Virus record (IMG/VR): IMGVR_UViG_3300025087_001798
Location: 1 to 42,685 of that record
Reading direction: 5' to 3' (one strand)
Length of the DNA stretch: 42,685 nt
From: a virus
The notes under the pieces were generated by a model, which was not told the origin of the DNA, did no database searches, and worked only from the letters and a program-made list of their open reading frames with translations. A program made the translations under genes and the position numbers. This document shows, piece by piece, positions 1-40,239 of this stretch (position 1 is its first letter; each line of letters opens with the position of its first letter).

Positions 1-810
1 ATTTACTACCGATTCTTGTGAGGTTGTGCCTGGTACACCTTTAATTTTTCTCAAAGAAATACGGTCATATCTATAAAGTGAATCTCTTTTAAAAACAAGT
101 ACATTGTCATTATTATCTCCAAGTCCTGTTATCTCATCTCCGTCATTGGTAGATACTTGGAAATAATTACTGCCTGCCCAATATCCTTCATCACTTAAAT
201 CCTGTGGTAAGGGTTCGGTTAAAATTAAACTGTTTTCCGTCTGGACTTCAGATATATAAAATGTTTTATCAACTCCTGTTATGAAAATCGGGTCTCCAAT
301 TTTAAGACCTCTGGTTTTAAAATAGATAGTCGGTTCACTATCAAAAACTCTTGTATCACCTTTATTACCATTTAGATTTGCACCTTCCACAAAACCATAG
401 GTAATATCATTATTGTCGGGTAGGTCGGTAAACCAAACCCACGAAGAATGTAATTCCTGTCTTGTTGGAAAATAAATACTCCCAAAATACATCCTATCCC
501 CAACCCGATGTATGTATTTTGCCAGAGGTGGTGCTCTAGTAACAATCTCATCAGTCCACACACTGCCGTCATATCTTTTAGAATTATCATTCGGTGTAAT
601 AACTCCAGGCGAAGTAATATTCCAGCCATTAACAAAGTAAGCCTTGTCTAAAAATACTGCGCTTCTCCATTTGTTTACACTGGAAGTTACGTTTACTCCC
701 TGTCCTGTCCAGGTATTCAAAACAGGATTCCAGATATGAAAGTCATTCCCATATACCCCTATGAGTTTTTCCAATCCGTCTGAAGTTTTTAAACCAGCTA
801 GTCCTATCAT
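1..810 (-). CDS. Beta-propeller-like virion protein (3' end beyond window)
   Basis: The reading frame is open from an ATG at 810 to the left edge, giving 270 visible codons. The protein alternates short strand-like segments ending in aromatic residues (NDFHIWNP, YDGSVWTD, VLVFKRDSLYRYD) with Gly/Asn/Asp turns, as in beta-propeller virion proteins. A packaged-DNA stabilisation or tail-hub protein of the P22 gp10 type would fit, because the window also encodes a P22-type portal, but that is inference. The ATG overlaps the stop of the upstream gene as TAATG, which suggests translational coupling. It has no Ser/Thr tract, unlike its neighbour. That it is a real gene is fairly certain; the exact function is not. 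Confidence 0.72.
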   Translation of the reverse strand, partial: MIGLAGLKTSDGLEKLIGVYGNDFHIWNPVLNTWTGQGVNVTSSVNKWRSAVFLDKAYFVNGWNITSPGVITPNDNSKRYDGSVWTDEIVTRAPPLAKYIHRVGDRMYFGSIYFPTRQELHSSWVWFTDLPDNNDITYGFVEGANLNGNKGDTRVFDSEPTIYFKTRGLKIGDPIFITGVDKTFYISEVQTENSLILTEPLPQDLSDEGYWAGSNYFQVSTNDGDEITGLGDNNDNVLVFKRDSLYRYDRISLRKIKGVPGTTSQESVVN

Positions 811-1328
811 TAAACTGTTGTTGTTGTACTCGTTGAACTGCTTGTCGTCGTCGAAGTTGAACTCGTTGTCTGTGTTGTGGATGTAGAACTGGTTGTACTA
901 GTCGTACTTGTAGAGCGCGTCGTCGATGTGGTGCTGGTTGATCGGGTTGTACTGCTAGAGGTACTCGTGCTGGAACTGGTAGTGGTTTCTGTAGTTGAAG
1001 TTGTAGTTTCTGTAGTTGAACTGCTCGTGGACGTGGTTGAAGTTGAAGTCGAAGATGTCGAAGTCGAACTGGTAGTCGAAGTAGTAGTTGAACTACTTGT
1101 GCTGGTACTTGTGGTTGTAGTACTGGTACTGGTTGTGGTACTGGTGGTGGAAGTTAAATCAGCTCCACGTTTTTCATTTCCTTCACGCTTGGCAACCGCA
1201 CCTATAATTTTGGAAAATACCGCATTTAAGGCATCGTAAAGTTCCCCCTTTTTTCTCAGGAAAACAGAAACCCTGCGGTTTACCCCTTCAAATGAATGTA
1301 TACTATAAGGCTGTTGTTGCTCTTCCAT
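810..1328 (-). CDS. Small virion-type protein with Ser/Thr-rich tail
   Basis: A 172-residue protein. The first 58 residues look like a normal folded domain (QPYSIHSFEGVNRRVSVFL, then a helical KKGELYDALNAVFSKIIGA segment). The rest is only Ser and Thr apart from a few Glu, Arg and Gln, and ends in Thr-Thr-Thr-Val. The same tail type occurs in six other proteins here. It sits between a connector-like gene and the beta-propeller-like gene, so a tail or neck role is likely. The ATG lies six bases after the upstream stop and has no strong SD. The tail could be an O-glycosylated spacer, given the nearby glycosyltransferase cassette, but nothing in the sequence proves this. Confidence 0.75.
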   Translation of the reverse strand: MEEQQQPYSIHSFEGVNRRVSVFLRKKGELYDALNAVFSKIIGAVAKREGNEKRGADLTSTTSTTTSTSTTTTSTSTSSSTTTSTTSSTSTSSTSTSTTSTSSSTTETTTSTTETTTSSSTSTSSSTTRSTSTTSTTRSTSTTSTTSSTSTTQTTSSTSTTTSSSTSTTTTV

Positions 1329-2640: not shown

Positions 2641-4371
2641 TCAGACAAGTGCCGCTGAAATAAAGTAAGGCCATGTTTGGGTGGTAGAAGAAGAAGTACT
2701 TGTAGAAATAGTTGTCGAAGTACTTGAACTGGTCGTGGTGCTCGTACTTGTTGTAGTAGTTGAGGTTGTGGTGGATTGACTTGTGGTGGTGCTCGTGCTG
2801 GAAGAAGAACTGGTGCTTGTAGAACTTGTCGTGGAAGTTGTAGAGGTTGAACTTGAGGTCGATGAAGTCGTACTAGTCGTTGACGTACTTGAGGTCGTAC
2901 TTGTTGATCTTGTTGTACTGGTGGTGCTTGTGGAAGAAGAAGTAGAAGTTGTACTGGTCGAAGTTGTTACCGATTGAGTTGTAGTAGTAGATGAACTGGT
3001 ACTGGAAGTCGTAGAAGTAGTTGTCGTACTGCTGGAAGTCGAGCGGGTAGTAGAGGTTGTTGAAGTAGATCGGGTTGTAGAAGTAGTTGATGTGGAACGG
3101 GTTGTACTTGTAGTTGAGGTACTTCGGGTAGTTGAAGTTGTACTAGTTGAGCTGGATGTACTCGTCGTAGTTGTTGAAGTACTTGAAGTTGTGCTGGTAG
3201 TACTGGTAGATGTAGTAGTGGTTGAAGTACTCGTTGTTAATGCACCATTGGTTACATACTCAACTAAAAGCCATTCAGTTGAAACGTCAGTACCTAAAGT
3301 TGTACCTCCCGTATGTTCTACTCCAATTTGTGCAGTATCTAAATTACTGGCAGCCCAAGGTGTAGTTGAAGCACCAGGCAAATCATAAAGGGTTAAAGAA
3401 TAATTAAAAGGTAAAGCAGCAGCGTTAGTGTGCCAACTAGTATCGGCTTGATTGATACCCGCACTACTTTCTACCGTTCCTCCACTTGAAGCTTTAATTC
3501 TTAATTTATCAGTACAAGCAACATCATTTTGTCTTAATCTTGCTCCTACTTGGACTAAAGTAATCGAATCATCGGCAGTTAAACCCGATGCCTCTAAGTT
3601 ATAATCGTCTAAAGTATTAACTACTGAAATATTATTTACTAAATCAGTTGCGTCATTAGGGGTAACTTCATCTACGTTTGTATAATTGTCTCCAGAGGTT
3701 GGTGTCCATTGGGAATTATCACCTACAGCATTAGGTTTAAGGTGTTTAATTTCTCCAGCACCAGGCCAGGAGTTTTGGAAAGAGCCAGTGGAGTCGTTGA
3801 TGGCTATATCGTCAAAATAAAAATCAGATGTTGAAGTTCCCGCAGTCCCAATATCTATATAGCCAGGTTTGTTTAACCCTGTCCAATTAACAGTACCAGA
3901 CGCAAAACTACTACCGTTAATTCGGCAATCTAATATCGAAGCTGATAGGGTAGTCATATCCACTTTTACTTCTATTGCGTACCAAGTATCTACTGAAAGA
4001 CTAGAAGAATCGCTACCGACTTGAGCACTCGCTATGTTATCCCAAAGCTGAATTGTTCCACTTGTAGTACAAATAATTCGTACAAGACCATCACCTACAT
4101 CACTAATAATATCTAAAACTCTCACATTAACAGATGGAGCAACTGCTAAACGTAAATAAATACGATAGTAAGATATAGTTGGGCCATTTCCTCCTGAAGC
4201 AAATGTATATTCAACATAAGAAGTACCTCCCGCTGTTGGGTTAATTCTTAAAGCATAAGTACCACTTCGAACGGGAGAAGTAACAATTGATCCTGTACCA
4301 CCCTTAACATTAATCTCAACCTCAGCAGTTAAACTATTTAACTCAAATCCGCTAGACCATAACCTCGCAAT
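2641..4371 (-). CDS. LamG-like jellyroll protein with Ser/Thr tract, probable AUU start
   Basis: About 576 residues. Residues 1 to about 130 resemble a concanavalin/LamG-like jellyroll domain (ARLWSSGFELNS at the start, VRSGTYALRI, DTWYAIEVKVD, DFYFDDIAIND). A second beta-rich domain follows, then roughly 190 residues of Ser/Thr with occasional Arg, ending in a short hydrophobic peptide (WPYFISAALV). Such proteins are typically tail fibres or adhesins that bind glycans. A GTG at 4125 would remove half of the jellyroll. The frame extends upstream to an ATT at 4371, preceded by an extended SD-like AAAGGAAGTGAT. An in-frame TGA lies two codons before it, so the start is tightly bounded. Confidence 0.75.
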   Translation of the reverse strand: MARLWSSGFELNSLTAEVEINVKGGTGSIVTSPVRSGTYALRINPTAGGTSYVEYTFASGGNGPTISYYRIYLRLAVAPSVNVRVLDIISDVGDGLVRIICTTSGTIQLWDNIASAQVGSDSSSLSVDTWYAIEVKVDMTTLSASILDCRINGSSFASGTVNWTGLNKPGYIDIGTAGTSTSDFYFDDIAINDSTGSFQNSWPGAGEIKHLKPNAVGDNSQWTPTSGDNYTNVDEVTPNDATDLVNNISVVNTLDDYNLEASGLTADDSITLVQVGARLRQNDVACTDKLRIKASSGGTVESSAGINQADTSWHTNAAALPFNYSLTLYDLPGASTTPWAASNLDTAQIGVEHTGGTTLGTDVSTEWLLVEYVTNGALTTSTSTTTTSTSTTSTTSSTSTTTTSTSSSTSTTSTTRSTSTTSTTRSTSTTSTTRSTSTTSTTRSTSSSTTTTSTTSSTSSSTTTTQSVTTSTSTTSTSSSTSTTSTTRSTSTTSSTSTTSTTSSTSSSTSTTSTTSSTSTSSSSSTSTTTSQSTTTSTTTTSTSTTTSSSTSTTISTSTSSSTTQTWPYFISAALV

Positions 4372-4388: not shown

Positions 4389-7300
4389 CTAATCATCTAT
4401 TCGTATTGTAGTATCCCCACTTGCTGTAGGCGCAAGCTCATCTTCTTCTACTTTAATGGTTGTTTCTTCCTGAAAAGTAATACTGGTTTCTTGTGGTTCA
4501 GATTCCGCAGGGCTTGCGAAATCGGGGCTTGTACTCAAATTACTTTCATCCTGCAAAACGTCAATCTTCATAGTTTCTGGGGCTTCGGGGGTAACTAACT
4601 GCGGCTCGTCAGCTAAGTTAAGTGCGGTATCAGGTTGTGCGTAAGTTATCTCCTCTTCTTCCTCTACAGAAATCGCATATTCAAAAGTAGTAGTCGTTGA
4701 AGTCGAAGTCGAAGTTGAACTGGATGTGCTTGTGGTTGTCGTGGTGCTCGTACTTGAAGTAGTCGAGGTAGTGCTTGTGCTGGTGCTTCGGGTGGTCGAA
4801 GTGCTCGAGCTAGTTGAAGTGGAACTCGTTGTACTGGTGGTTGAAGTCGAAGTGCTTGTACTCGTAGACGTAGAGGTGGTCGAAGTAGAGGTACTGGTCG
4901 AGCTGGTAGTACTGGTCGTGGATGTACTCGAAGTTGTAGAGGTAGTTGAAGTTGATGTCGTCGTAGAACTGCTCGTAGAAGTGGTGCTTGTGGAACTCGA
5001 ACTGCTGGTAGAGGTGGAGGTTGTCGTTGTGGACGTCGATGAACTGGTAGTTGTGGTGCTGGAACTCGTGCTCGTAGTGGTTGAACTCGTAGTGGAAGTG
5101 GTTGAAGTGCTGGAGGAAGTCGAACTACTGGTCGAGGTAGTGGTGGTAGAAGTACTGCTGGTAGTACTGCTCGTCGTTGAAGTGGTAGATGTACTCGTAC
5201 TGGAAGAGGTTGTGGTGGTGCTCGAACTGGTGGAGGTTGAAATAAGTGTTGTCGTCGTACTAGTTGAGCTGGAAGTGCTCGATGTAGTTGAGGTAGTCGA
5301 GGTTGATGAAGACGAACTTGTACTGGTCGTGGTGGTGCTCGTAGAAGAAGAGGTGGATGTCGTAGTTGTCGAACTTGAAGTCGAGGTTGAAGAACTTGTC
5401 GTCGTTGTTGAAGTACTGCTGGATGTCGAAGTCGTAGAAGTTGAGCTGGACGTGGAGCTGGTGGTGCTGGTTGTTGAGGTTGACGAACTGGAACTTGTAG
5501 TCGTCGTAGAGGTACTGGTTGTGCTAGAGCTGGTTGAACTTGTGGTTGAGCTAGATGTTGTTGTGGTCGAACTAGAGGTACTCGAAGTGGTTGAAGTGGT
5601 TGAGGAAGATGTAGAGGAACTAGTCGATGATGTTGTGCTGGTTGTGGATGTCGAAGAGGTGGTTGACGTAGTACTAGTGCTTGTTGAAGAAGATGAGCTT
5701 GTGGAAGTCGTAGTCGAAGAGGTACTCGTTGAGCTAGAGGTAGTAGTTGTACTTGTCGATGTAGACGAGCTAGTGGAGGAACTAGTCGTCGTAGATGAGG
5801 TGCTACTCGAAGTAGTAGTTGTGCTAGTAGAAGACGAAGTTGACGTGGAGCTACTCGTGGTAGTGGTTGATGAACTTGTGCTCGTTGTAGTTGTGCTGGA
5901 ACTGGTACTGGTAGACGTAGTTGTTGTGGAAGTCGATGTGCTAGTTGAACTCGAAGTTGTGGTTGTTGATGTACTAGAAGACGTACTTGTAGTACTCGAA
6001 CTTGTAGATGAAGAAGTGGAACTACTGGTAGTAGTGGTCGATGTTGATGACGTCGTACTAGTCGTAGAAGTACTACTGGAAGAACTCGTTGACGAGGTTG
6101 TTGAAGTAGTACTGGTACTCGAGCTGGTGGATGTTGTACTGGTGCTTGTAGACGAAGATGTGCTTGTAGATGTAGTTGTCGAACTTGTACTACTACTGGT
6201 TGATGTTGTGCTCGAGGATGTAGAACTGGAAGTCGAACTGGATGTCGTTGTTGTAGAAGTGGACGACGATGTGCTTGTTGTCGATGTGCTTGAAGAAGAA
6301 CTTGTTGATGAGGTAGTACTCGTGGTTGACGTGCTCGAAGAAGTTGAAGTCGTGCTTGTACTTGTTGAAGAGGATGAACTCGAAGACGTAGTAGTTGTAG
6401 AGGTTGAGCTTGACGTGGTGGTTGTAGAAGTAGAGGAAGTCGTGGACGTGGACGATGTAGTGCTGGTTGTACTCGTACTGGATGTCGTCGATGTGGTGCT
6501 TGTAGAGCTAGACGTGCTACTGGTTGTAGATGTAGTTGAGGTGGAAGAACTGGTCGAGGTGGTGCTCGTAGATGATGAAGTCGATGTAGAGGAACTAGTG
6601 GTAGTTGTACTACTGCTCGTCGTTGTGCTCGATGTAGAGCTTGAAGTTGAACTTGTAGTACTGGTGGTAGAAGTAGATGAGCTCGTGCTTGTGGTGGTAG
6701 TTGATGAGCTTGTACTGCTAGAGGTAGTAGTTGAGGAAGTAGACGAACTGCTGGATGTAGACGATGTGGTACTAGTCGTGCTTGTACTAGAAGTCGTAGA
6801 TGTCGTACTCGTGGAAGAGGACGAACTAGTTGAAGAGCTAGTAGTCGTAGTTGAAGTAGACGTAGTGGTGGTGCTCGATGATGTGGATGTGCTGGAACTA
6901 GTCGTGGTCGAACTTGTTGAACTGCTGGTAGAAGTTGTGGATGAGCTGGTTGAACTACTCGTTGTGGTTGTAGATGTAGACGTACTGCTTGAGGTTGTAG
7001 TAGTTGAGCTTGATGTTGTAGTCGAACTACTCGTTGATGTTGTTGACGTGGAACTAGAAGTGGAACTAGTAGTAGAAGTGGTACTCGTACTGGAGCTGGT
7101 AGAAGTAGTTGTGGTGGATGTACTCGAGCTTGTTGTAGTTGTGCTTGTCGATGAACTGGTAGAGGTACTCGAAGTGGTGGAGGTAGTAGAGGTGGAACTG
7201 CTTGAACTGGTACTCGATGTCGTGGAAGTCGTGCTGGTAGAGGTAGACGTAGTAGTCGTTGAGGTGGATGTTGAACTTGTGGTACTAGTCGTTGATGTGC

Positions 7301-8138
7301 TCGACGTTGTGGATGTTGTACTTGTGCTTGTGGAAGATGAAGTACTGCTAGACGTTGTCGTGGTGCTCGTCGTAGTTGAACTAGACGTAGAGGAACTGGT
7401 TGTAGTGGTTGAAGTACTGGAAGTTGTACTCGTTGTGCTTGTAGAGGTACTTGAAGATGTACTGGTTGACGTTGTAGTTGTTGACGAAGAAGTAGACGAA
7501 CTCGTACTGCTCGTTGTTGAAGTTGTGCTAGTACTCGTCGAGGTTGTTGTAGTTGACGAACTTGTACTAGAAGTTGTGGAAGTCGTTGAAGTAGAAGTGC
7601 TGGAAGAGGTACTCGTAGTGGTTGTCGAAGTTGAACTAGAGCTACTTGTAGACGTAGTAGTAGTGGAACTACTAGTCGAACTGGTTGTAGAAGTGGTCGA
7701 TGTAGAACTGGTAGTCGATGTTGTTGAAGTGGAGGATGAAGTTGACGAACTAGTAGTGGTGGTAGAAGTCGAGCTTGAAGTGGACGTGGATGAAGTGGTA
7801 CTTGTGGTTGACGTGCTTGTACTGCTGGTTGTGGAGGTTGTTGACGTAGATGAACTCGTCGAAGTTGTACTAGTTGAAGACGATGTCGACGTGCTTGTAG
7901 TAGTCGTACTTGTTGAAGTTGAGGTAGTTGAGCTTGTGGAGGAACTCGTAGTCGTTGTGGACGAGCTGGTTGAGGAGGTCGTAGATGTAGTACTGGTCGA
8001 CGACGTTGTGCTTGTCGTGGAAGTAGATGAGCTGGTACTTGTGGAAGTTGTGGTCGTGCTGGTAGTCGTACCGCCTGCTTCTAGAGGAAAGTAATTCTGC
8101 CCAAAATATATCTTACCAAAAAAATTAGCACCAGTCAT
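4389..8138 (-). CDS. Giant Ser/Thr-only repeat protein (1249 aa)
   Basis: Three parts are visible. Residues 1-23 are aromatic and Gly-rich (FFGKIYFGQNYFPLEAGG). Residues about 24-1151 are Ser and Thr, with one Leu-Ile pair and one Arg as the interruptions I saw. The last 98 residues are acidic, rich in Glu, Asp, Pro and Thr. There is no signal peptide or membrane segment. A mucin-like extended fibre on the virion is the simplest reading, with the ends serving as anchors. The ATG at 8138 lacks an SD but has a TATAAT six bases upstream. The neighbouring genes also look like tail or fibre proteins. The long open frame on the opposite strand is a by-product of the Ser/Thr codons. Confidence 0.85.
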   Translation of the reverse strand: MTGANFFGKIYFGQNYFPLEAGGTTTSTTTTSTSTSSSTSTTSTTSSTSTTSTTSSTSSSTTTTSSSTSSTTSTSTSTTTTSTSTSSSTSTTSTSSSTSTTSTTSSTSTSTTSTTSSTSTSSSTSTTTTSSSTSSSTSTTSTTSSTSTTSTTSSTSSSTTTTSTSSSSSTSTTTTSTSSSTSTSTTSTTSSTSSSTTTTSTSTSTTSTTSSTSSSTSSSTTTTSTSTSSSTSTSTTSTTSSTSTTTTSSSTSSSTTTSTTTTSSSTSSSTSTSTTSTTSSTSTTSTTSSTSTSTTTTSTSTSTTSTTSSTSSSSSTSTTSTTSSTSTSSSTSTTTTSSSTSTTTTSTSSSTSTTSTTSSTSSSTSTTSTSSSTTTSSSTTTTSSSTSTSTTTTSSSTSSSTTSTSSSTSSTTTSSSTSTSSSTTTTSTSTTTTSSSTSSSSSTSTTSTTSSTSTTSTTSSTSSSSSTSSTTTSSSTSSSTTTTSTSSSTSTTSTTSSTSSSTSSTTTSSSTTTTSSSTSTSSSTSTTSTSSSTSTTSTTSSTSSSTSTTSTTSSTSTTSTTSSTSTTSSTSTTTTSSSTSTTTTSSSSSSSTSTSTTSTSSSTSTTSTTSSTSSSSSTSTTSTSSSTSTTTTSSSTSSSTSSSTTSTSSSTSSTTTSTSTSSSTSTSTTSTSSSTSTTSTTSSTSSSSSTSTTSTTSSTSTTTTSSSTSSSTSSSTTSTSSSTSTTTTSSSTSTSTSTTTTSTSTSSSTTTTSTSSSTTTTSSSTSTSSSTSTTTTSSSTSSTTTSSSTSSSTSTSTTTTSSSTSTSSTTTSTSSSSSTSTSTTSTTSSTSTTSTTSSTSSSTSSSTTSTTSSTSSSTTTTSSSTTSSTSSSTTSTSTTTTSSSSSTSTTSTTSSTSSSTSTTSTSSSTSTTTTSSSTSTSSSTTTTSTSSSTSTTTTSTSSSSSTSTTSTTSSTSSSTSTTTTLISTSTSSSTTTTSSSTSTSTTSTTSSTTSSTSTTTTSTSSSTSSSTSTTSTTSSTTTSTSSSTTTTSSSTSTTTTSTSTSSSSSTSTTSTSSSTTTSTSTTSTTSSTSTTSTTSSTSTSTSTTSTSTSTSTSTSTTSTTSSTSTSSSTSTTRSTSTSTTSTTSSTSTTTTTSTSSSTSTSTSTTTTFEYAISVEEEEEITYAQPDTALNLADEPQLVTPEAPETMKIDVLQDESNLSTSPDFASPAESEPQETSITFQEETTIKVEEDELAPTASGDTTIRIDD
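4686..8069 (-). repeat. Low-complexity Ser/Thr coding repeat with scrambled codons
   Basis: About 3.4 kb encodes essentially nothing but Ser and Thr, often in an eight-residue rhythm TTSTTSST. At DNA level the tract is not a clean tandem repeat: all four Thr codons and several Ser codons (AGT, AGC, TCA, TCC, TCG, TCT) are mixed. The protein composition is therefore kept while exact DNA repeats are broken up. Similar shorter tracts occur at 813-1150, 2680-3235, 10060-10265, 28327-28450, 28630-28750 and 28925-29145. Confidence 0.9.
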
Positions 8139-8762: not shown

Positions 8763-10025
8763 CTATGTAAGATAGCACACCAAATCCCCATTAGTAAATC
8801 CATGTCCTGCCGTTGCATCCCAAACTCTTGTTTTTAACTGTCTTAAAGTTGGGGTTACACCTTCGGAAATGTAAATAGGAGTAGCATTGGCAGCAGCAGT
8901 AAACTTACCCATTACCCTTAAATATGGTGTTGCTGGCCCTATTTCCATCAAATGCGGATTGGTAAAAGATGTCCCTGTCCAGTCTTCTATTCTTAAAGCA
9001 TCGGCATTAGATATAACCAAGGTCGCCGCACTCCTTGCAATCGCCCTGATCCGCAGACCGTACATATTGGTTATAGTCATCGTCCCCGAAATCTGGGTAA
9101 TTAAAGAGCCTGCTATTGTTTCGTACCAAGTCAAATTTGAAATTGTGGAAGCAGTACCGCTTTGGTTAAAGATTTGATGTTCAACTGAACAAGCAATAAT
9201 GTCGGTTTGAGTTAATCCCGTAGCAGTCGGCCAAGTGCCTAAAGCGAAAGCTAATCCATAAGCACCCGCATTATTACTAGCGCTGTATTTATGAATTAAC
9301 AGTCCATAAACTCCTACCAATCTTTTATTGGCAGTTGCCGTAGTTAAAGTCGGGCCAATATACAAACCTTCCCAACTATTGGTTGTGGTAAAGACGTTAT
9401 CAATTTTAATAGCCGTATTAACAGAAACCGTACTGCCCTGAAGGGCTAAAACGCCTGTACCTTTAATATCGCCTGTTAAAGTAAGATGTGGACTTGAGGT
9501 TGCCGTAGTTATTCTTGCCGTCCCACCCGTATCTGCAATATTGGCAAGTCTGGGAGCGGCAGACCAAGAAACATCCGTACCATTTGTCCATAAAACGGAA
9601 TTGGCCACCCCCACCACAAGCTCGTCCCATTTAGGGGTAGAGTTGCCGTAAATTAAAGAACCACGGGAGACTGTTTGGGCAACAGTATCCGCCTTAACTC
9701 CATCTAATAAGTTAGCCTGTTCAACATCCGTTAAAGTCTTGGCACTAATTGTAGCCGCTATCTGATCTCCAACCACTATACTTCTTGCGGTTGAACTCTC
9801 TTGAGCTCTTGTAATAGTAAAAGTATCAGTTGAAATCGCCGTAACTCTAACTATTTCGGCATTTGTGGTTAAGGGCTGAACTCCTGTAGGCCAAACTGTG
9901 GCATTGAAAGGTACTGTTGGAAATAAAGCTCCTTCACTTGCAGTAACTACCAAGGAAGTTCCAGAATCAGCGGGGCTTGGAGCCGTCACTACGGTTGAGT
10001 AGGAAAAGTTTTTGTGACTGTCCAT
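8763..10025 (-). CDS. Tail fibre or spike-like protein
   Basis: A 420-residue protein. Residues 1-110 match the general N-terminal pattern of phage structural proteins (LVVTASEGALFP, NAEIVRVTAI, DTFTITRAQESS, VGDQIAATIS), which often attach fibres to the virion. The rest is beta-rich with repeated small polar and hydrophobic strands (GLYIGPTL, YGLRIRAIAR, DALRIEDWTG), as in elongated fibres or spikes. A C-terminal segment (TRVWDATAGHGFTNGDL) may be the tip. It begins one base after the stop of the DNRLRE-like gene and has no clear SD, so coupling is likely. It contains no Ser/Thr tract. No enzymatic motif is visible, so depolymerase activity cannot be claimed. Confidence 0.75.
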   Translation of the reverse strand: MDSHKNFSYSTVVTAPSPADSGTSLVVTASEGALFPTVPFNATVWPTGVQPLTTNAEIVRVTAISTDTFTITRAQESSTARSIVVGDQIAATISAKTLTDVEQANLLDGVKADTVAQTVSRGSLIYGNSTPKWDELVVGVANSVLWTNGTDVSWSAAPRLANIADTGGTARITTATSSPHLTLTGDIKGTGVLALQGSTVSVNTAIKIDNVFTTTNSWEGLYIGPTLTTATANKRLVGVYGLLIHKYSASNNAGAYGLAFALGTWPTATGLTQTDIIACSVEHQIFNQSGTASTISNLTWYETIAGSLITQISGTMTITNMYGLRIRAIARSAATLVISNADALRIEDWTGTSFTNPHLMEIGPATPYLRVMGKFTAAANATPIYISEGVTPTLRQLKTRVWDATAGHGFTNGDLVCYLT

Positions 10026-10026: not shown

Positions 10027-10854
10027 TTATACGTTATCCACTGCTATTGAAAACGGCATTGTCGTTGAAGAAGAGGTAGTCGTAGTTGAAGAACTCGTTG
10101 TTGTGGTGCTCGTGGTTGTAGTGCTCGTACTTCGGGTCGTGGAAGTTGTACTTGTTGAGGTGGTGGTTGTTGAAGTAGAAGTTTGTGTTGTAGTTGTACT
10201 CGTAGAACTACTCGTTGAACTGCTTGTACTGGTTGTCGAAGTGCTTGAAGAGGTAGAAGTAGTTGTGTTTTCTGTATAGGTAATTACTAATTTAGGGTCT
10301 TGGGAAGTACCAGTATTTTCAGAAGTAACAATATTTACTTGATAGTCAGAATCATTAAAAGCAGAATTATCTATATCACTTCCACATCTTAATCCTAATT
10401 TTGTAAAACCTGTTTTATTTATTAAAGCTAATCCCGTAGCGTTAAGGGTAATCGTATTATAAGCTCCTGCTGTAAGGCTAGTAAGTGCAATCTCATTACC
10501 TAAATTTGTAGTTCCCACAAGTGAATAGTCACTAAGCACTAAAGAACTGGTTGATGCCTGTGTAGTTTCAATTAAACGTACTGAATCACCAATAATACTT
10601 ACTAAACTACCAACCCAAAAACTGAATGTCGCTGAATTTATGGTGCAGTCATCTGGTAAAGTAGATGTGTCAAATGGGAAGAAAGCCCTAAAAATGTCTG
10701 GAGATGTTTGGGCAGTAATTTGAACTTGTGTATCAGTATAATTTACTTGACTACCACTAGAGGCATCATGTTGTTGCTGCCATGTACTGTATGCAGGTGG
10801 CCGAGCAGCTACATAACCATCCCCCGCACTCGAGAATATAGTCAATGTTGCCAT
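10027..10854 (-). CDS. DNRLRE-like virion protein with Ser/Thr tract
   Basis: A 275-residue protein. Residues 1-195 form a beta-sandwich-like domain with the signature FFPFDTSTLPDDCTINSATF, which resembles DNRLRE-type domains found in extracellular and adhesive proteins. About 65 residues of Ser/Thr with a few Arg and Gln follow, then a short hydrophobic tail MPFSIAVDNV. The layout (binding domain, Ser/Thr spacer, hydrophobic end) is the same as in the LamG-like protein. The ATG at 10854 has no SD and lies seven bases after a TATAAT. It directly precedes a fibre-like gene and follows the sugar cassette, so it is probably a surface-exposed fibre component. Confidence 0.75.
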   Translation of the reverse strand: MATLTIFSSAGDGYVAARPPAYSTWQQQHDASSGSQVNYTDTQVQITAQTSPDIFRAFFPFDTSTLPDDCTINSATFSFWVGSLVSIIGDSVRLIETTQASTSSLVLSDYSLVGTTNLGNEIALTSLTAGAYNTITLNATGLALINKTGFTKLGLRCGSDIDNSAFNDSDYQVNIVTSENTGTSQDPKLVITYTENTTTSTSSSTSTTSTSSSTSSSTSTTTTQTSTSTTTTSTSTTSTTRSTSTTTTSTTTTSSSTTTTSSSTTMPFSIAVDNV

Positions 10855-10899: not shown

Positions 10900-11937
10900 C
10901 TACAAAGGTCGTATGTACACTTCTTTTATACGCTTTAGTGGTATTCTAGGTGCGTCAGGTGGCGGTGGGTGTCCCCAAGGGTCCATATGCCTACCTTGGT
11001 TAAACTCAGGCGGCCACAGAAAATCATTATCATTCCAAGCTGGTATGCCTTCAAAAAGCTTCGGGTCAAGTTCTGCTTTAATGTCCTTACTCTTTCCCCA
11101 AAAATGCCAACACCATGACTTCATCGTACTAACCATTCTTCTATGGTAAGTAGGGTCACATTCATCTCTCTCAACTGGCCAAGCACAACTGTAGGCACGG
11201 GTATTCATGTCATAATCTTCTCCTCCACCCCATACATATCTCTCATCAAACAAACCATTTTCAATCAATCCTTCTCTTTTAAATATAGGCAGCCACATGG
11301 CAATGGCATCAATCACCCCACGTTTACTCAAAGGGAAGGTCATCTGTCCGTAATTGGGCTGTTCCTTTCTCTGCTCAACGGGAATGTAAGTCTTGCCCTG
11401 CCAATCAGCCCTGCCGTCTGGTAACTTATCGGGTATGTCCATTGGCTCGGGCGGGTATCTCTCAATCAGTTTCTCGTAGTCTCCACTTTTAAGGAAAGCT
11501 ATATCCTCTGGTGTGTAAGTCTCTTTATACTCAACAAGGTCTATATACTCTTCATGCGGTCTGCCGTACCCCCACAACGGTATTCTAGGGCTTTCGGGGC
11601 AGACTGCTACTATTTTTGGGTCAGTCTCAAATTCTTGTAAAGCATCTTCAAACCAGCCATCATACATAAATTCCGTATCATCGTTAACACAAGCTATATA
11701 GGGTGTTCCCCATCTCAGGGCGTGAATCATGCCTTCATTGGCGGCTTTGGCAAAACCTTGGTTCTTCATACGGAGGTATAAGTGTACGTTTTTATCTATC
11801 CAATCCCTGTCCAATCCTTTAATACTCTGGTCTACTACTATTAAGGTAAAATCTTTAGTGTATTTATAAAGGGTTTCAACAGACTTATAAATAAAATCCG
11901 AACGAATCACAGGGTACACAAAAGCTACTCGTGACAT
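10900..11937 (-). CDS. Family 2-like glycosyltransferase
   Basis: A 345-residue GT-A fold protein. It has a Rossmann-like start (SRVAFVYPVIRSD, FTLIVVDQS), the NQGFAKAANEG segment typical of family 2 enzymes, and a metal-binding aspartate cluster VNDDTEF near residue 105. A probable acidic catalytic region (WGGGEDYDMN) lies near residue 240. The C-terminus is Pro-rich. It is the last gene of the sugar cassette and overlaps the preceding deacetylase-like gene by 13 bases; an SD (GAGGAGG) lies inside that gene. It would transfer a sugar from a nucleotide donor in the cytoplasm. Donor and acceptor are unknown. Confidence 0.85.
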   Translation of the reverse strand: MSRVAFVYPVIRSDFIYKSVETLYKYTKDFTLIVVDQSIKGLDRDWIDKNVHLYLRMKNQGFAKAANEGMIHALRWGTPYIACVNDDTEFMYDGWFEDALQEFETDPKIVAVCPESPRIPLWGYGRPHEEYIDLVEYKETYTPEDIAFLKSGDYEKLIERYPPEPMDIPDKLPDGRADWQGKTYIPVEQRKEQPNYGQMTFPLSKRGVIDAIAMWLPIFKREGLIENGLFDERYVWGGGEDYDMNTRAYSCAWPVERDECDPTYHRRMVSTMKSWCWHFWGKSKDIKAELDPKLFEGIPAWNDNDFLWPPEFNQGRHMDPWGHPPPPDAPRIPLKRIKEVYIRPL

Positions 11938-12578
11938 GGGTTAATTGCCTCCTCTAGCCATCTGAATTGTGTTTTGTTATCCCAGGGTACACCGTGTTCT
12001 TCTTCTACTTGTCTAAAGCCATTCCTACCAGCTTTGTCTCCCGTTTCCATATCCCATGTATGGAAATGTACTATTTGGTCATTACAATCAATACATATAA
12101 CATTAGAATTCGCAGGTCTTGCGGGTTTGTTATAGTGTCTATCAACTATCGTATAGCCTCTTTCGGTTAAAACTCTGTAAACAACTTGTGGATCTTTGCC
12201 TACAGGAGTATCAGCATCAGCCGTGTACCCTCCGTATTTATCTGTTATCATCCAACCAGGACTTTTAAACATCTTTATATACGCTCCAGTTTTTTCTACT
12301 CTATCTAAATAGGCGTTAGTTTTGATCTCATCCCAGCCCCAGCACTCGAAATTACTTTCGTGATTCCATCCATGCATGGCTAATCTTATAAAGTCGTGTT
12401 TACTCATCAGCTCCAGCATTTCGGGGGAAGTCCTATCGGGAATTGTAAAAAGGGTTATCTTAAAATCAGGGTACTTAGCTTTCCAATAGAACAGGAAATT
12501 CAAACCATTCCTGTCGTAGCGATCTTGAAAATCATCAGCCTCTATTGCTACTATGTCCCTAATTTGCCAGCTATTCAT
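11925..12578 (-). CDS. Polysaccharide deacetylase-like protein
   Basis: A 217-residue protein resembling the NodB/polysaccharide deacetylase fold. Family hallmarks visible are an early acidic pair (EADD, residues 13-16) and the zinc-binding motif HGWNH (His69, His73). A late IVHFHTW segment could supply the final catalytic His. These enzymes remove N- or O-acetyl groups from sugars using a metal ion. In this cassette it could trim acetyl groups from the phage-made glycan, or act on the host envelope, but there is no signal peptide, so a cytoplasmic biosynthetic role is more likely. Its start overlaps the upstream glycosyltransferase gene by eight bases. Confidence 0.72.
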   Translation of the reverse strand: MNSWQIRDIVAIEADDFQDRYDRNGLNFLFYWKAKYPDFKITLFTIPDRTSPEMLELMSKHDFIRLAMHGWNHESNFECWGWDEIKTNAYLDRVEKTGAYIKMFKSPGWMITDKYGGYTADADTPVGKDPQVVYRVLTERGYTIVDRHYNKPARPANSNVICIDCNDQIVHFHTWDMETGDKAGRNGFRQVEEEHGVPWDNKTQFRWLEEAINPCHE

Positions 12579-13254
12579 ATCTATCCATTAAAAATCTGCA
12601 AACTATATTTCTGTTTTCATAGTGTTCACCGTTATACGATTGCCCTACTCCACCGTCTGGCAGTTCAATCAAATCAGTATCCCCATCTACTGGTATAACA
12701 TAATTCTTTTCCCTGTTTAAGTATTTATTGCCCAAGGATAAAAATACATCATCCAAAGACCTTCTGGGCAAGTCAGGGTACATTGTGCGCAGATGAAATC
12801 CTGCAACCAACATCTCCAAGGGAACAAAATATGTCCTGATAATAACATCAACTTCAACTAATTTATTCCCTCTTGATATGGATAAGTCATTTGAATAAGG
12901 TGCATCCGTGTGTCCCAGAATACTTCCCTCCAATCCAAGAATCGAGAAAGGGCGTTTGGTGGCATAATTGGTAAAGTTAGCCAGAGTCTCCTTCTGCACA
13001 CTCAGGTCATCGTCTATAAAAAAACAGTAATCGGTCTCACAAGTTAAACCTACGGCAAAGCGTATACTAGGCAGGAAATGCTTAGAAGAACGTATGATAG
13101 TTACCCTATCATCTTCAAACTCTATTTCTTGGTTATCAATAAACATAATAATTCTCTCAGGTTTTACGCTCCCGTCTAACAGGTCATCAACAATCCTTTT
13201 TAAGTTACCTTCCCGTTCCTTATGATGCGCAAGTATTATCCCCGTCACGTTCAT
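12571..13254 (-). CDS. GT-A type glycosyltransferase
   Basis: A 227-residue protein with an N-terminal strand and helix (NVTGIILAHHKEREGNL), a central segment with the nucleotide-sugar/metal motif FIDDDLSV near residue 97, and a later region LPRRSLDDVFLSL that may hold the catalytic acid. It lacks any membrane segment. The start ATG overlaps the stop of the HNH gene as ATGA. Before the HNH invasion it probably overlapped the aminotransferase gene in the same way, because the HNH tail copies the aminotransferase tail. Glycosyl transfer is well supported; substrate is unknown. Confidence 0.8.
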   Translation of the reverse strand: MNVTGIILAHHKEREGNLKRIVDDLLDGSVKPERIIMFIDNQEIEFEDDRVTIIRSSKHFLPSIRFAVGLTCETDYCFFIDDDLSVQKETLANFTNYATKRPFSILGLEGSILGHTDAPYSNDLSISRGNKLVEVDVIIRTYFVPLEMLVAGFHLRTMYPDLPRRSLDDVFLSLGNKYLNREKNYVIPVDGDTDLIELPDGGVGQSYNGEHYENRNIVCRFLMDRYE

Positions 13255-13886
13255 GCGTAAAACTCCCTAACTTTTTCACAGATAAACTCTTTTCGAAATC
13301 TTAAATACCTACCATAAGTATCTGTAGTCTTATGGCATTCACGACAAAGTGTTCTACCATTAGAAAGTTCAAACCTTAATTCTGGGAACAAGGCAAACGG
13401 TTTAATATGATCTGCATTTAGAATTATACTTTTCCCATTACCGTTTCTCTTTTTACACATTTGGCAAGTAAAATTGTCTCTAGTATAAACCGCTTTACGC
13501 CATTGTTTGTATTGATAAGAAGTCCTTATTATCTGGTTAATTGGAGTAATACCTCCTTTCCAAAAATGAGAATCCTTCCCTTTCATTCCTTTGTGAGCGG
13601 TACATTTCTTGGCTTTATAAGTTGTGAGTTGTACCTTACACACCATACACCTAGGTTTACCACCTTTCCAATTTTTACCCTTTAAAGAATTACTTATCTT
13701 CTCTTTTGTACTTATTGATAATTTTGTACCTAATCGAATTATTCGTAATTTCTCTTTAGCAGATTCGGGCATAGATTTATGCTTATGTCGCATTTTTAAA
13801 ATAGTTTCTAAACTATGTTTTTTACCCAACATACCAACATGATTATCCCGAAGTTTTTGTTTATGTTCTTCAGATAGTTTTTTCAT
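13251..13886 (-). CDS. NUMOD3/HNH homing endonuclease with captured aminotransferase tail
   Basis: A 211-residue free-standing homing endonuclease. Residues 4-70 hold NUMOD3-type DNA-binding repeats (SEEHKQKLRDN, SAKEKLRII, STKEKISNSLKG). Cys80/Cys83 may bind zinc. Residues 136-186 are the HNH nuclease: Cys141/Cys144, Asp159-His160, Asn176, Cys181/Cys184-His185. It lies inside the sugar operon and its ATG overlaps the last codons of the DegT aminotransferase gene. Its final residues EFICEKVREFYA closely match that aminotransferase's own end, EFICNKVRTFYE. The simplest reading is that the gene inserted into the 3' end of the aminotransferase gene and now carries the displaced original 3' end as its own C-terminus. 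Confidence 0.88.
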   Translation of the reverse strand: MKKLSEEHKQKLRDNHVGMLGKKHSLETILKMRHKHKSMPESAKEKLRIIRLGTKLSISTKEKISNSLKGKNWKGGKPRCMVCKVQLTTYKAKKCTAHKGMKGKDSHFWKGGITPINQIIRTSYQYKQWRKAVYTRDNFTCQMCKKRNGNGKSIILNADHIKPFALFPELRFELSNGRTLCRECHKTTDTYGRYLRFRKEFICEKVREFYA

Positions 13887-14946
13887 AAAAAGTACGCACC
13901 TTGTTACATATAAACTCTACTTGTGTCCAAGTCAATCCGTGGTGTACTGGTAGAGTCAGAAGTTCCTTCCAGACAGAATCAGTTACAGGTAGGGGTCGTT
14001 TTACCGCACGTTTCCAATACGTCATTTCACTTAAAGGCTTAAAATGTACGGAGGTTGCAATTCCATTTGTTGCCAGAAAATCACTAAGCTCATCCCGTCT
14101 GTCACATTTCATCGTATAATACTGAACCGTATGTGAATAAGCTGGGGGTTGAATAACATTCATCAACCTCTCATTGTAAACACTTTGTATAGCTCTTCTC
14201 TTAGCATTGGTTTCTTCTAAGCGTTCAAGCTGTCCCAAACAAATTACCGCTGTCAGGTCATTCATGTAACTCTTAGTCCCTTCGGCTTGGGTAATATCGT
14301 AGTCCCAACTGTATCGTTTAGAATCAGCTCGTTCATAAGTGCTCTTTTCTATTCCCAACCAAGTCAAAGTTCTTAGCTTCTGGTAAATCTTCTCATCGTT
14401 GGTAGTTACCATTCCCCCATCTCCTGCGGGTAAACTTTTAACGGCTTGGAAACTCCAAATTGCAATATCCCCTCTATGCCCTGCCTGTGGTGTGTACATG
14501 GCATGGGCGCAGTCTTCAATAATTAGACCTTTAAACTTTTTTCTAAGTCCTTCAATATCCGCCAGCCGTCCGTGTGAATTAACCGTAATTATTGCCTTGG
14601 TCTCTGGTGTAACTACCACAGTCTCAGGGTCAAGGCATAAAGAGTCGGGATCAACGTCTGCAAAGGTTACATCCATACCATTCCACAGTCCTACTATGGC
14701 ATCGGCTACAAAGGTCATTGCAGTTGTTATCAATTCCCCGCCTTTAATCCCGTGGGCTTTTAAACAAAGGTCTAAGGCTGCCGTACCGCTGTTTGTGGCA
14801 ATTGCGTACTTCGCTCCTACATACTCTGCAAATTTCTTTTCAAATTCCTGCGTCTTGGGGCCATATCCCCACCAACCAGAAGTAAGTACATCAAGCATTG
14901 CTGCCTGTATTTTTGCATCTGAAGTCGGGCTCAAAACGGGAATCAT
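13870..14946 (-). CDS. DegT/DnrJ/EryC1-family sugar aminotransferase
   Basis: A 358-residue PLP enzyme of usual family length. Visible hallmarks are SGWWGYGP near the start, TNSGTAALDL (cofactor phosphate contact), EDCAHA with Asp145 (pyridine nitrogen contact), and SFQAVKSLPAGDGG with the Schiff-base Lys170. The family transfers an amino group, usually from glutamate, to a 4-keto or 3-keto nucleotide sugar, giving amino sugars for surface glycans. This enzyme would make an amino-deoxysugar for the cassette. Its 3' end overlaps the HNH gene by 17 bases, and its tail has a diverged copy at the end of that gene. Confidence 0.9.
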   Translation of the reverse strand: MIPVLSPTSDAKIQAAMLDVLTSGWWGYGPKTQEFEKKFAEYVGAKYAIATNSGTAALDLCLKAHGIKGGELITTAMTFVADAIVGLWNGMDVTFADVDPDSLCLDPETVVVTPETKAIITVNSHGRLADIEGLRKKFKGLIIEDCAHAMYTPQAGHRGDIAIWSFQAVKSLPAGDGGMVTTNDEKIYQKLRTLTWLGIEKSTYERADSKRYSWDYDITQAEGTKSYMNDLTAVICLGQLERLEETNAKRRAIQSVYNERLMNVIQPPAYSHTVQYYTMKCDRRDELSDFLATNGIATSVHFKPLSEMTYWKRAVKRPLPVTDSVWKELLTLPVHHGLTWTQVEFICNKVRTFYEKTI

Positions 14947-15941
14947 CTTGCTTTCCTTAATCCATCTCTAAAAAACTCTCTCCATGCAGGTATGTATTTG
15001 TCCCAAGTCCAGTTGTTCTCGACAAACTTTCTGGCTTTTAATCCCATTTCTTTTCTTTCTTCTGGGTGGTCTCTCAGGTAAATTACGGCTTCACCTACAC
15101 GCCTTGCTACATCTGCTTGGTTATTCATATAATAATTTCTATCACCAGTAATCAAAATCCCTCCCCCAGCCTCACATAATAAGTGGTCTATTCCAGAATC
15201 GGTACAAATCACGGGTACTCCACAGGCCGCCGCCTCCATCGTCGGGAAAGAATATGCTGGGTCTTGGTCAATTCTTAAAAGAACATCCAGGCTGTTGTAA
15301 ATATTAGGCATACCAGTCCAACGTTTATCACCCGTTACCACGTACTTCATTAGTCTCTCTCCATCCCATTGGTCAAGTGCTCCACCGTTGTTTACCCAAC
15401 TGGAGGGGTAAATCATCAACCGTACTCCAGAAATATCAGAAACGGGTCCAACTACAGTTTTTACCATATGTCTGTCATTTACCTGATTCCCTACATAACC
15501 AGCGTGGAATAAATCATCTTCACGCACCAGCATGTAGGGTGCAAATAAGTTAGTATCAACTCCGAATCTCAAACTATGGTAAGGGGTTCCCTCTAAATCC
15601 AAAGCCTTCTCAACATGGGGGGTGGCGGCTCCAAGCACCGCTATGTCTTTATACCTGCCTTCACTGTGTGTATAGAAAACACTGGCAACTTTGGGTGCAT
15701 ATTTATCTTGGTCTATAACATGCCATGCCCCAGCCCACATAGGCCAGATAAGGTCATAGTCGTCAGGGCTTCTTTCAAAGGGGCTTGTCTCTGGGTATCT
15801 GTCTAGGAAGTTTTTGTAAGGCGGGTAAGGAACTGTCCCTATTTCCATAAAAAACTCATCCCCTAAATACCTTATAAGGTACTCGGCATATGCCTCAACA
15901 TACCAGCCGTGCCAAATTGGAATCATTAGTATTCGATTCAT
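14943..15941 (-). CDS. Family 4-like glycosyltransferase (GT-B)
   Basis: A 332-residue GT-B type enzyme. The C-terminal domain carries the donor-binding signature PTMEAAACGVPVICTDSG with the expected Glu near residue 235, followed by a helix-rich end (HPEERKEMGLKARKFVENNW) typical of family 4. The N-terminal domain (RILMIPIWHGWYVEAYAEYL) would bind the acceptor. It overlaps both neighbours with ATGA junctions. It probably adds a hexose-type sugar in the cytoplasm, with retention of configuration if it follows the family; donor unknown. Confidence 0.86.
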   Translation of the reverse strand: MNRILMIPIWHGWYVEAYAEYLIRYLGDEFFMEIGTVPYPPYKNFLDRYPETSPFERSPDDYDLIWPMWAGAWHVIDQDKYAPKVASVFYTHSEGRYKDIAVLGAATPHVEKALDLEGTPYHSLRFGVDTNLFAPYMLVREDDLFHAGYVGNQVNDRHMVKTVVGPVSDISGVRLMIYPSSWVNNGGALDQWDGERLMKYVVTGDKRWTGMPNIYNSLDVLLRIDQDPAYSFPTMEAAACGVPVICTDSGIDHLLCEAGGGILITGDRNYYMNNQADVARRVGEAVIYLRDHPEERKEMGLKARKFVENNWTWDKYIPAWREFFRDGLRKAR

Positions 15942-16099
15942 TTTTTATACTTTTTGAAAACATCAGCAAGTTCAGGTACGGAAAGCTTAGACAGTTCCCT
16001 GCAAACCAATCTCATAACTTCCTTAACCTGTGCTATTGAAACACTCTTTTTCTGACCTTCTAAAAGTGTTACTTTCTGAGCAAGTTTATTCAGATTCAT
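15938..16099 (-). CDS. 53-aa hypothetical helical protein
   Basis: A 53-residue reading frame between two cassette genes. It begins MNLNKLAQKVTLLEG, continues through a probable helix (AQVKEVMRLVCREL) and ends in a Lys-rich helix (ADVFKKYKK). A strong SD (GGAGGG) lies just before its ATG, and the ATG overlaps the end of the upstream methyltransferase gene. Its stop overlaps the next ATG as ATGA. These couplings and its coding-like composition argue that it is real. Function is unknown; a partner or regulator of a cassette enzyme is possible. Confidence 0.7.
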   Translation of the reverse strand: MNLNKLAQKVTLLEGQKKSVSIAQVKEVMRLVCRELSKLSVPELADVFKKYKK

Positions 16100-16745
16100 T
16101 TCCCTCCTTTCTTTTTAAAACTATAACTACGTCCCGCCCGCTTACTTCTGCGCCTACGTTCTCTGTTACTTCCAGTATCTCCCAGCCTTCTTTATTTTCA
16201 AGGTATTCCATACATAGTTTCTTAGAATATGAATTAGTGTATTCGTTAGGGTAAAGTTCCCCACCGCTTGGTCTGTAATCAATGTTTTTTATCTCATGCT
16301 CGTCGCCTTTTGCAAACGAATACCAAAGAACCACTATCACTAACTTTTTGGCTACCCGACAATGCTCATCCATAGCTTCTTCAAAAGACTTCATATGGTC
16401 AACAACGTGTCTGGAGTAAACTACATCATAAAGGTGGTCAGGCTGGTTTATCTTGTGGATACTAGGGTTTACTTTCCAATTGGTTTCAGGGAAGGTTTTT
16501 TTACACCACTCAATATTCTTAGGTATTATGTCTACACCTAAATATTGTCTTGGGTTCCAGTCAAGCTCAGTTTTTAATGCTTCCCAAGTAGTACCACTAC
16601 CACAACCATAATCCAAAATTTCCATGTCAGGTTCCACATATTTTTTAATAGCGTAAAGTTGGGATGGGTGGGCAGGTCCGTTGCCCCCTCCTCTACATAA
16701 GGTATCTGTTTCAATGGTCGAGAACCATAATTGGTTAGGATCCAA
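16086..16745 (-). CDS. Class I SAM-dependent methyltransferase
   Basis: A 219-residue Rossmann-fold methyltransferase. Motif I is ILDYGCGSGTTW (residues 43-54), the acidic end of strand 2 is YLGVDI, and motif IV is YDVVYSRHVVDHM. The C-terminal strands read LVIVVLW and DVVIVLKRK. It probably methylates a sugar hydroxyl or an intermediate of the cassette glycan. The start is TTG at 16745, four bases after an SD GGAGG and overlapping the FkbM-like gene. An ATG is not available near that SD. The acceptor cannot be told from sequence. Confidence 0.85.
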   Translation of the reverse strand: MDPNQLWFSTIETDTLCRGGGNGPAHPSQLYAIKKYVEPDMEILDYGCGSGTTWEALKTELDWNPRQYLGVDIIPKNIEWCKKTFPETNWKVNPSIHKINQPDHLYDVVYSRHVVDHMKSFEEAMDEHCRVAKKLVIVVLWYSFAKGDEHEIKNIDYRPSGGELYPNEYTNSYSKKLCMEYLENKEGWEILEVTENVGAEVSGRDVVIVLKRKEGNESE

Positions 16746-17403
16746 AGTCCCTCCTTATATAAAAAGCATTAGAAACATCCATACATAAATAATCATAACC
16801 CTTTTCTTTGGCCAGTTTATTCATAAGGCCAACTGTTACCCCGCCATATCCTTCTCTTTGTTTGCGGTATTTCCAGAGTGAATAAGAAGGATCATAATCA
16901 ATTACATCAAAATTGGTTTCCAATTGGTTAATTTCCACACAAATCAAATTAGGCTGGTATTCCTTTAAATTCATCCATATCTCATATTCAAAACAATCAA
17001 CATCTATGGAAAGAAAATCAAAGTTAGGTGGAAGAAAAAAAGGGTCTATTAATTCTTCTAGGTTTTTGGGTGTTACAAAAGCCTCTAAAACTTTAACATT
17101 TTTATTATCTTTAAATGTTTCCCTAATCTCAGGTACTTGAATTGAACTGGCTTCAATTAGTATTCCTCTCCAGCCCTGTTCAATCAACTTATAGGTGTTG
17201 GAACTTGTAGCTCCGTATGCTCCTACGTCTACAAGTATTTTATTTTGTGGGGGAACAACGGAAAAAACAGAATCAATAATATTATTTTCTCCATGCTCGG
17301 AATGCGCACCTTCCATATCCAAAGGCCGATGGATTAACTCTTTGTTAAAAAGCCCTATATACTTTACGTTCCAGCACTTATCCTCTTGGTTCAAAATATC
17401 CAT
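16735..17403 (-). CDS. FkbM-like methyltransferase
   Basis: A 222-residue protein of the FkbM-type family, which O-methylates sugars and other small molecules. Motif I-like NKILVDVGAYGATSSNTY and the acidic GILIEASS strand are followed by FDFLSIDVDCFEYEIWMN, the family's characteristic SIDV[ED]G-like strand (here with Cys in place of Gly), and LICVEINQLE. I start it at ATG 17403, six to eight bases after AAAGGTG, instead of GTG at 17412. It overlaps the glycosyltransferase gene upstream by 26 bases. With three other methyltransferases in the cassette, a multiply methylated glycan is plausible. Confidence 0.85.
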   Translation of the reverse strand: MDILNQEDKCWNVKYIGLFNKELIHRPLDMEGAHSEHGENNIIDSVFSVVPPQNKILVDVGAYGATSSNTYKLIEQGWRGILIEASSIQVPEIRETFKDNKNVKVLEAFVTPKNLEELIDPFFLPPNFDFLSIDVDCFEYEIWMNLKEYQPNLICVEINQLETNFDVIDYDPSYSLWKYRKQREGYGGVTVGLMNKLAKEKGYDYLCMDVSNAFYIRRDFGS

Positions 17404-20319: not shown

Positions 20320-20933
20320 AAAAATAAACTGTTATAACGGCTGTAACTACCGTTTAGTGCTCCTCCCACTTCCATTTCCTCTACTTTCAAACCAGCTTCC
20401 CTGAAAGCCGTAAACAACGCATCCATGCTATATTCCTGTAAATAATGCGGCTGCTCCCATTTCTCCTGTCCTTTTGGTGTTGAATAACTCCAGTCTTCTC
20501 TTATAAATGTTCCTTCTACTGCAAACTTTCGCCATAGAATAATACAAACATAACTTTTCGCAACTCTTGCGGCTTCTTTAATCGCTGCTTTATAGTCATC
20601 TACGTGGTCCAGTGCGTGCATTAAAACTACACAATCCCAACTGTTATCCTTCTCTTTTAAGTGTCGCATATCCTGTACTTCAAAATCACCTTCTGGAAAC
20701 TCACGCTTGGCGGTTTCAATCATCGTTCTGGAATAATCCACACCTTTGTAATCAAGTCCAAAGTCTTTATTTAAAATATAAAGCGGGCCAGTACCGCAAC
20801 CAACATCAAGCAGAGTTTTAACTTCTTTGTTTTTTAACAGGTTTAAAATATAAAGGCGGTGGGGGTGCGGCCCATGTTGGTAGGGTAATTCAAACTCTTC
20901 ACTTTCCCAGAAAAATTTAGGGTCTTTAATCAT
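20304..20933 (-). CDS. Class I SAM-dependent methyltransferase
   Basis: A 209-residue enzyme with motif I TLLDVGCGTGPLY (residues 40-52), strand-2 acidic YKGVDYS, motif II DFEVQDMRHL, and motif IV WDCVVLMHALDHVDD. This is the general Methyltransf_11/25 pattern. The C-terminal part (SMDALFTAFREAGLKVEEME) matches the usual last helix and strands. Its N-terminal HGPHPHRLYILN resembles the start of the methyltransferase at 16745 (GPAHPSQLYAI), so the two may be paralogues acting on similar acceptors. It overlaps both neighbours. Probably a sugar or glycan O-methyltransferase. Confidence 0.86.
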   Translation of the reverse strand: MIKDPKFFWESEEFELPYQHGPHPHRLYILNLLKNKEVKTLLDVGCGTGPLYILNKDFGLDYKGVDYSRTMIETAKREFPEGDFEVQDMRHLKEKDNSWDCVVLMHALDHVDDYKAAIKEAARVAKSYVCIILWRKFAVEGTFIREDWSYSTPKGQEKWEQPHYLQEYSMDALFTAFREAGLKVEEMEVGGALNGSYSRYNSLFLCKLM

Positions 20934-40238: not shown

Positions 40239-40239
40239 T

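Follow-up and report, generated by a model that had tools for sequence, protein, structure and literature searches.

We analysed a 42,685-nucleotide stretch of viral DNA (positions 1–42,685 of the IMG/VR record IMGVR_UViG_3300025087_001798; hereafter, the window) that contains a giant open reading frame (ORF) on the minus strand (4389..8138). Its product (1,249 aa, approximately 119 kDa) consists of a 23-residue N-terminus, a tract made almost entirely of Ser and Thr (4686..8069, minus strand; 1,128 residues, ORF residues 24–1151) and an acidic C-terminus (4389..4685, minus strand; FEYAISVEEEEE...IRIDD, isoelectric point 4.05). The tract holds 573 Ser, 552 Thr and three other residues (one Leu-Ile pair and one Arg)—1,125 Ser/Thr in a near-continuous row—and a residue count found no Pro in it. 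Lys and Arg occur in the whole protein only at residues 9, 1117, 1191, 1229 and 1246, and are absent between residues 9 and 1117. The original prediction for this DNA, made from the sequence by itself, had described approximately 1,130 Ser/Thr residues at 4686–8069 with very few others (Leu-Ile and Arg), and the count agrees on both points. Among the 50 tracts of 90 aa or more in the loci examined, the giant tract ranks first in length (the runner-up has 484 aa), and its length is far beyond chance. The opposite strand also stays open for 1,122 codons (4726..8094, plus strand), because GTN, GAN and CTN cannot be stops in that frame. This openness is a by-product of the ACN, TCN and AGY codons, as had been predicted, and an antisense gene at this position was rejected.

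All ten Ser and Thr codons are used in near-even proportions in the giant tract (Thr: ACT 158, ACA 158, ACC 134 and ACG 102; Ser: AGT 131, TCA 101, TCT 98, AGC 92, TCG 77 and TCC 74); the original prediction had recognized all four Thr codons and understated the Ser codons as 'most'. The longest exact DNA repeat is 19 nucleotides, compared with 19.3 ± 2.1 in synonymous shuffles that held the amino-acid order fixed, and 29 15-mers are repeated, compared with 29.7 in the shuffles. Because the longest repeat matches the shuffled value, the codon order is that of a random draw. Exact DNA repeats are therefore as short as had been anticipated, and the long near-exact repeats of a young tandem-repeat protein were not found, in line with the claim that no young tandem expansion produced the tract. 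The further claim of 'deliberate' mixing, in which DNA repeats are actively removed, is unsupported as it was stated. The codon entropies (Thr, 1.979 bits; Ser, 2.558 bits) are close to those of the other genes of the phage (1.948 and 2.483 bits), with a slightly more even codon use in the tract (Ser, p = 0.004; Thr, p = 0.33). Identical adjacent codons are fewer than expected (84 versus 103 ± 8.8, p = 0.017), and TpA (z = −5.2) and CTAG (z = −3.5) are depleted at codon junctions. These departures are small, and ordinary dinucleotide effects account for part of them; the signs of active repeat avoidance are weak when compared with synonymous shuffles, and we rejected it as the cause of the codon mixing, for which ordinary synonymous divergence suffices. 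In the survey of 50 tracts, 23 had no excess of DNA repeats and 13 were true DNA repeats (longest repeat at least twice the shuffled value), and the giant tract ranked among the least repetitive.

The order of Ser and Thr in the giant tract is rule-bound, not random. Conditional entropy drops to 0.53 bit per residue and the 12-residue word STSTTSTTSSTS is found 31 times, and both measures are independent of the block-parsing rules described below. Ser runs have lengths of 1, 2, 3, 5 and 7 only, and Thr runs are mostly of 1, 2 or 4 residues. Cut at TT boundaries, the tract falls mostly into blocks of 9, 11, 13 or 15 residues (23, 14, 18 and 21 blocks, respectively) with Ser at alternate positions. 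The lengths of adjacent blocks are anticorrelated (r = −0.49; 0 of 2,000 shuffles as extreme) with sums that peak at 24, and a spectral peak lies at 2.19 residues (49.5 versus 15.0 ± 3.9 with the blocks permuted); these block statistics are exploratory, because the parsing rules were set after the sequence had been seen. Codon choice is independent between repeated words: two copies of the same 9-residue word agree in Thr codon at a rate of 0.259 (0.256 by chance, from shuffles) and in Ser codon class at 0.529 (0.525 expected), and TCN and AGY serines, although separated by two mutations, replace one another at equal word positions. This decoupling of words and codons places the pattern at the protein level, and the TCN/AGY interchange rules out a DNA-level origin of the words in the window (for example, by hexanucleotide slippage). 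The Ser/Thr grammar is the new part of the finding. A tract at another locus (L137, 9606–10010) is built of alternating 5- and 7-residue units and is nearly quasi-periodic, with a spectral peak at 2.401 residues (power 27.3 versus 8.4 for shuffles).

The window derives from an uncultured tailed phage that is podovirus-like, with an SU10-type adaptor. The adaptor gene (PF24175; 1335..2477) puts the giant tract gene in the tail module; genes for a tail fibre protein (phrog_8469; 8763..10025), the major capsid protein (phrog_371; 29517..30434), the portal protein (34144..36348) and the terminase large subunit (phrog_38; 36349..37833) were also identified, all on the minus strand. Six further minus-strand ORFs encode tract proteins, and all seven tract ORFs lie in the structural block between the capsid and tail genes. 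On the tail side, one is found between the adaptor and the next tail gene (810..1328; ending in TTTTV), one has an N-terminal part assigned to phrog_14065 and contains (STSTTSTTR)n words (2641..4125; ending in TQTWPYFISAALV), and one has an N-terminal domain weakly like a carbohydrate-binding module (10027..10854; ending in MPFSIAVDNV); the last two are closed by a short cap (either QTWPYFISAALV or MPFSIAVDNV). Three small paralogs come immediately after the capsid gene (28324..28623, 28623..28913 and 28916..29329; ending in TTTTI, TTTTI and TTTTV, respectively). Many tail-side tract proteins, including 10027–10854, 2641–4125 and those of loci L002 and L146, are closed by a short hydrophobic cap ([LFWM]P[YF]...), and capsid-side proteins end in TTTT and a single V, I or L; both classes of end recur across relatives (for example, TTMPFSIAVDNV and TTMPFSVSIDNV). 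The frame of ORF 2641–4125 is open upstream to approximately 4376, and AGGAAG precedes an ATT codon near 4370; this rare ATT, and not the listed GTG, is the probable start of the gene. Models of the N-domains of the capsid-adjacent protein (28450–28623; predicted local distance difference test score (pLDDT) 68.5) and of 10027..10854 (pLDDT 58.4) were too weak for firm fold claims. The best viral matches of the former model were collagen-repeat proteins (best E = 0.008, weak at this pLDDT), and the domain bears a weak similarity to the N-terminal parts of collagen-like proteins from phages and giant viruses, as if one anchor bore different rods. The window has no tRNAs, and a host search found no relative of the capsid protein in genome contigs. 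Coding density is low and G+C content is lower at 38900–42685, where plus-strand ORFs appear at the end; this strand switch may mark the start of an early region.

Relatives keep the architecture of the giant ORF at other lengths. The phage of locus L002 (42.6 kb; identity to the window of 63% for the adaptor and 87% for the capsid protein) has a 348-residue tract at the same place, an acidic C-terminus and four further tracts. The acidic C-termini of the two phages are not significantly similar (E = 0.24), and the orthology of the giant ORF therefore rests on position and architecture. A 44.6-kb phage (G006; capsid identity of 56%) encodes a 971-aa protein with approximately 770 tract residues in its own dialect, as well as other tract proteins and a sugar island. 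Its blocks are mostly odd in length, with anticorrelated neighbours (r = −0.27, sums at 26), and its repeated words retain a small residual codon similarity (0.372 versus 0.334). The L002 tract showed no super-period, and its coherence did not exceed that of permuted blocks (p = 0.55). In more distant relatives, short tracts in other dialects follow the capsid gene. A scan of bacterial genomes for the Ser/Thr words returned mostly Ser/Thr-rich loci and was not informative, because the pattern also admits Thr at Ser positions.

Purifying selection was measured in two orthologous short tracts; the giant tract has no close ortholog, and the sequences of the close strains L123 and L124 stop short of it. 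The substitution analysis that the original prediction had proposed was thus run on the short tracts. Between 28324..28623 and its ortholog (L126), fourfold tract sites differ at 61%, compared with 54% in the capsid gene of the same pair, yet only 3 of 40 residues swap Ser and Thr (10.6 ± 3.5 under free exchange; P = 0.007 at kappa 2 and 0.048 at kappa 4), none leaves Ser/Thr, and 4 of 15 kept serines switched codon class. In the 28623 ortholog, 5 of 40 residues swap (11.8 under free exchange; P = 0.043 at kappa 2 and 0.14 at kappa 4). Across the two tracts, 0 and 1 of approximately 41 residues left Ser/Thr, with 61–67% of fourfold sites changed. As swaps are rarer than under free exchange at a normal synonymous divergence, selection probably acts on the protein; the Ser/Thr composition of the tracts is strongly conserved, and their order is probably conserved as well. 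The proposal of long selection on composition gains support from the relatives, which keep Ser/Thr at varying length. Long exact DNA repeats and decay of the tracts in relatives, which the original prediction had named as contrary findings, were both looked for: the giant tract has no such repeats, and the relatives' tracts are still Ser/Thr. Its description did not extend to the non-random order, the other six tract proteins or the sugar island.

The sugar island (10900..27958, minus strand; 17 kb) comprises approximately 16 sugar genes between the tail-side and capsid-side tract proteins, and approximately 40% of the window is given to sugar genes. It encodes GT2 and group-1 glycosyltransferases, two DegT aminotransferases, four to five methyltransferases, an NAD-dependent epimerase and a UDP-glucose/GDP-mannose dehydrogenase. 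Matches to PF00535 (GT2) number seven in the window, seven in the L002 phage (G001), six in G006 and six in G004, compared with none in ten capsid-related GenBank phages or in eight terminase-related phages; DegT is likewise present in these four and in 0 of the 10 capsid-related phages, in the examined parts of which no tracts were found. Outside the clade, among contigs of at least 30 kb (which may be incomplete), GT2 was found in 6 of 7 with a long tract (at least 100 aa) and in 2 of 13 with short tracts (Fisher p = 0.004). Over 10.6 kb, strain L123 hardly differs from the window, and approximately 85 of its 95 differences are packed into 0.7 kb of the island (20098–20787; aminotransferase/methyltransferase), which looks like an allele replacement by recombination. 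The island also contains an HNH endonuclease with a NUMOD3 motif (13251–13886); it looks like a mobile homing endonuclease, because a related copy lies elsewhere in L002, adjoining the adaptor gene (9555–9872).

We consider it probable that the giant ORF encodes the backbone of a mucin-like, phage-glycosylated tail fibre and that six other virion proteins are treated alike, because the same phage bears approximately 16 sugar-making genes and six more tract proteins. The 1,128-residue rod would be O-glycosylated by the adjacent phage-encoded glycosyltransferases and nucleotide-sugar enzymes, and the shorter tracts would be modified likewise. With a sugar brush of this kind, the fibres could become stiffer and better hydrated and could withstand proteases, in keeping with the lack of Lys and Arg between residues 9 and 1117; the brush could also provide shielding or serve in adhesion to the host or its capsule. 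Selection would hold each position as Ser or Thr, and largely which of the two, and free drift at synonymous sites would leave shuffled-looking codons and no DNA repeats. The location of the tract proteins in the virion, their glycosylation and its benefit are what we infer from these data. Several points weigh against this interpretation. The giant tract is known from one assembly, virion membership of the tract proteins rests on gene order, and a plain mucin model does not demand a strict Ser/Thr order. No protein O-glycosyltransferase was identified among the genes of the phage, and the GT2 and group-1 matches do not tell the acceptor, for which DNA and host glycans are candidates. Nor is the clade comparison (4 of 4 versus 0 of 10) phylogenetically independent, and GT2 is missing from one long-tract contig of 31 kb (G023).

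For the order itself, we tentatively suggest a selected code, a register in which blocks of odd length (9, 11, 13 and 15 residues) form a 24–26-residue super-period. Such a code might conceivably set glycan placement or fibre assembly. It would be kept over hundreds of residues despite fully randomized codons, in dialects that differ between related phages.

The main rival to the glycosylated fibre is an unglycosylated, ordered, beta-structured fibre or spacer, in which alternating Ser/Thr strands and TTTT or TTSTT turns would stack into a shaft. We regard this as unlikely, as we do the corollary that block lengths mirror shaft geometry. The odd-length blocks with alternating Ser, the anticorrelated neighbours in both the window and G006 and the 2.19-residue peak would all suit a shaft, but its 1,128 positions would lack hydrophobic core residues, the L002 tract is no more coherent than its permuted blocks, an old tandem repeat could equally yield the 24-residue order, and the co-occurring sugar genes are left unexplained. 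It is distinctly less probable that the sugar island acts on phage DNA or host surface glycans, unrelated to tracts that are plain flexible linkers. Glycosyltransferases encoded by viruses are known to act on DNA and on host serotype (as cited in PMC12619734), but the set of aminotransferases, methyltransferases, epimerase and UDP-sugar dehydrogenase suggests complex surface glycans, and the association of tracts with glycosyltransferases extends beyond the clade. Low-complexity DNA drift, with repeat expansion and no protein-level function, is very improbable: it would fit the 13 of 50 phage tracts that are true DNA repeats, but not the giant tract, which has none, nor the orthologous short tracts, which have stayed Ser/Thr despite extensive fourfold change. 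Mutagenesis by a diversity-generating retroelement or a similar system would match the random-looking third positions, but we give it almost no credence and rejected it, with hypermutation, for the short tracts, which are identical among the window, L123 and L124, vary synonymously and have diverged at fourfold sites as far as the remaining genome has; the scanned ORFs included no reverse transcriptase.

The giant tract protein resembles several known systems in part. Collagen-like fibre proteins of phages and giant viruses likewise join a small N-terminal domain to a long low-complexity rod, which here is Ser/Thr and not Gly-X-Y. The Pro/Thr/Ser (PTS) domains of vertebrate mucins are long Ser/Thr domains that carry glycans; the giant tract, by contrast, is viral and has neither DNA repeats nor the Pro of PTS repeats. 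Glycosylated mycobacteriophages have few glycosyltransferase genes, whereas the window phage combines approximately 16 sugar genes with seven tract proteins, one of which carries the 1,128-residue rod, and its glycosylation is putative. PMC12619734 (citing Freeman et al. 2023) describes virion glycosylation by phage-encoded glycosyltransferases in mycobacteriophages, with glycans reported at the C-termini of virion subunits (capsid and tail tube). The window phage similarly encodes glycosyltransferases (seven PF00535 matches and group-1 enzymes, with two DegT aminotransferases), and its seven tract ORFs supply Ser/Thr acceptor stretches, most of them C-terminal, on proteins assigned to the virion by gene order. 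Phage virion glycosylation is already known, and the giant tract would be an extreme form of it. The closest bacterial analogues are the serine-rich repeat glycoproteins of Gram-positive bacteria (for example, GspB), which have very long Ser/Thr-rich domains and dedicated glycosyltransferases encoded nearby (PMC5578698, PMC6973325). The giant tract is purer and its gene sits in a phage structural module; inspected by eye, its N-terminus (MTGANFFGKIYFGQNYFPLEAGG) and C-terminus (IRIDD) show neither a signal peptide nor LPXTG, and no accessory Sec genes turned up among the ORFs scanned (ORFs at 31–34 kb were outside the Pfam scan, and no dedicated search was made). Codon-scrambled synthetic genes also encode repetitive protein in non-repetitive DNA (PMC10094428), by design, whereas synonymous drift under protein-level selection needs none. 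Literature searches found no paper on Ser/Thr tracts in phages.

If this interpretation is true, the giant tract would be a natural polymer built from just two amino acids, exceeding the other Ser/Thr tracts in these scans in both length and purity. Its repeated words, spelled with independent codons, make protein-level order separable from DNA-level order. The phage would allow phage-made glycoprotein coats to be studied by experiment, and it might supply protein O-glycosyltransferases for simple Ser/Thr substrates.

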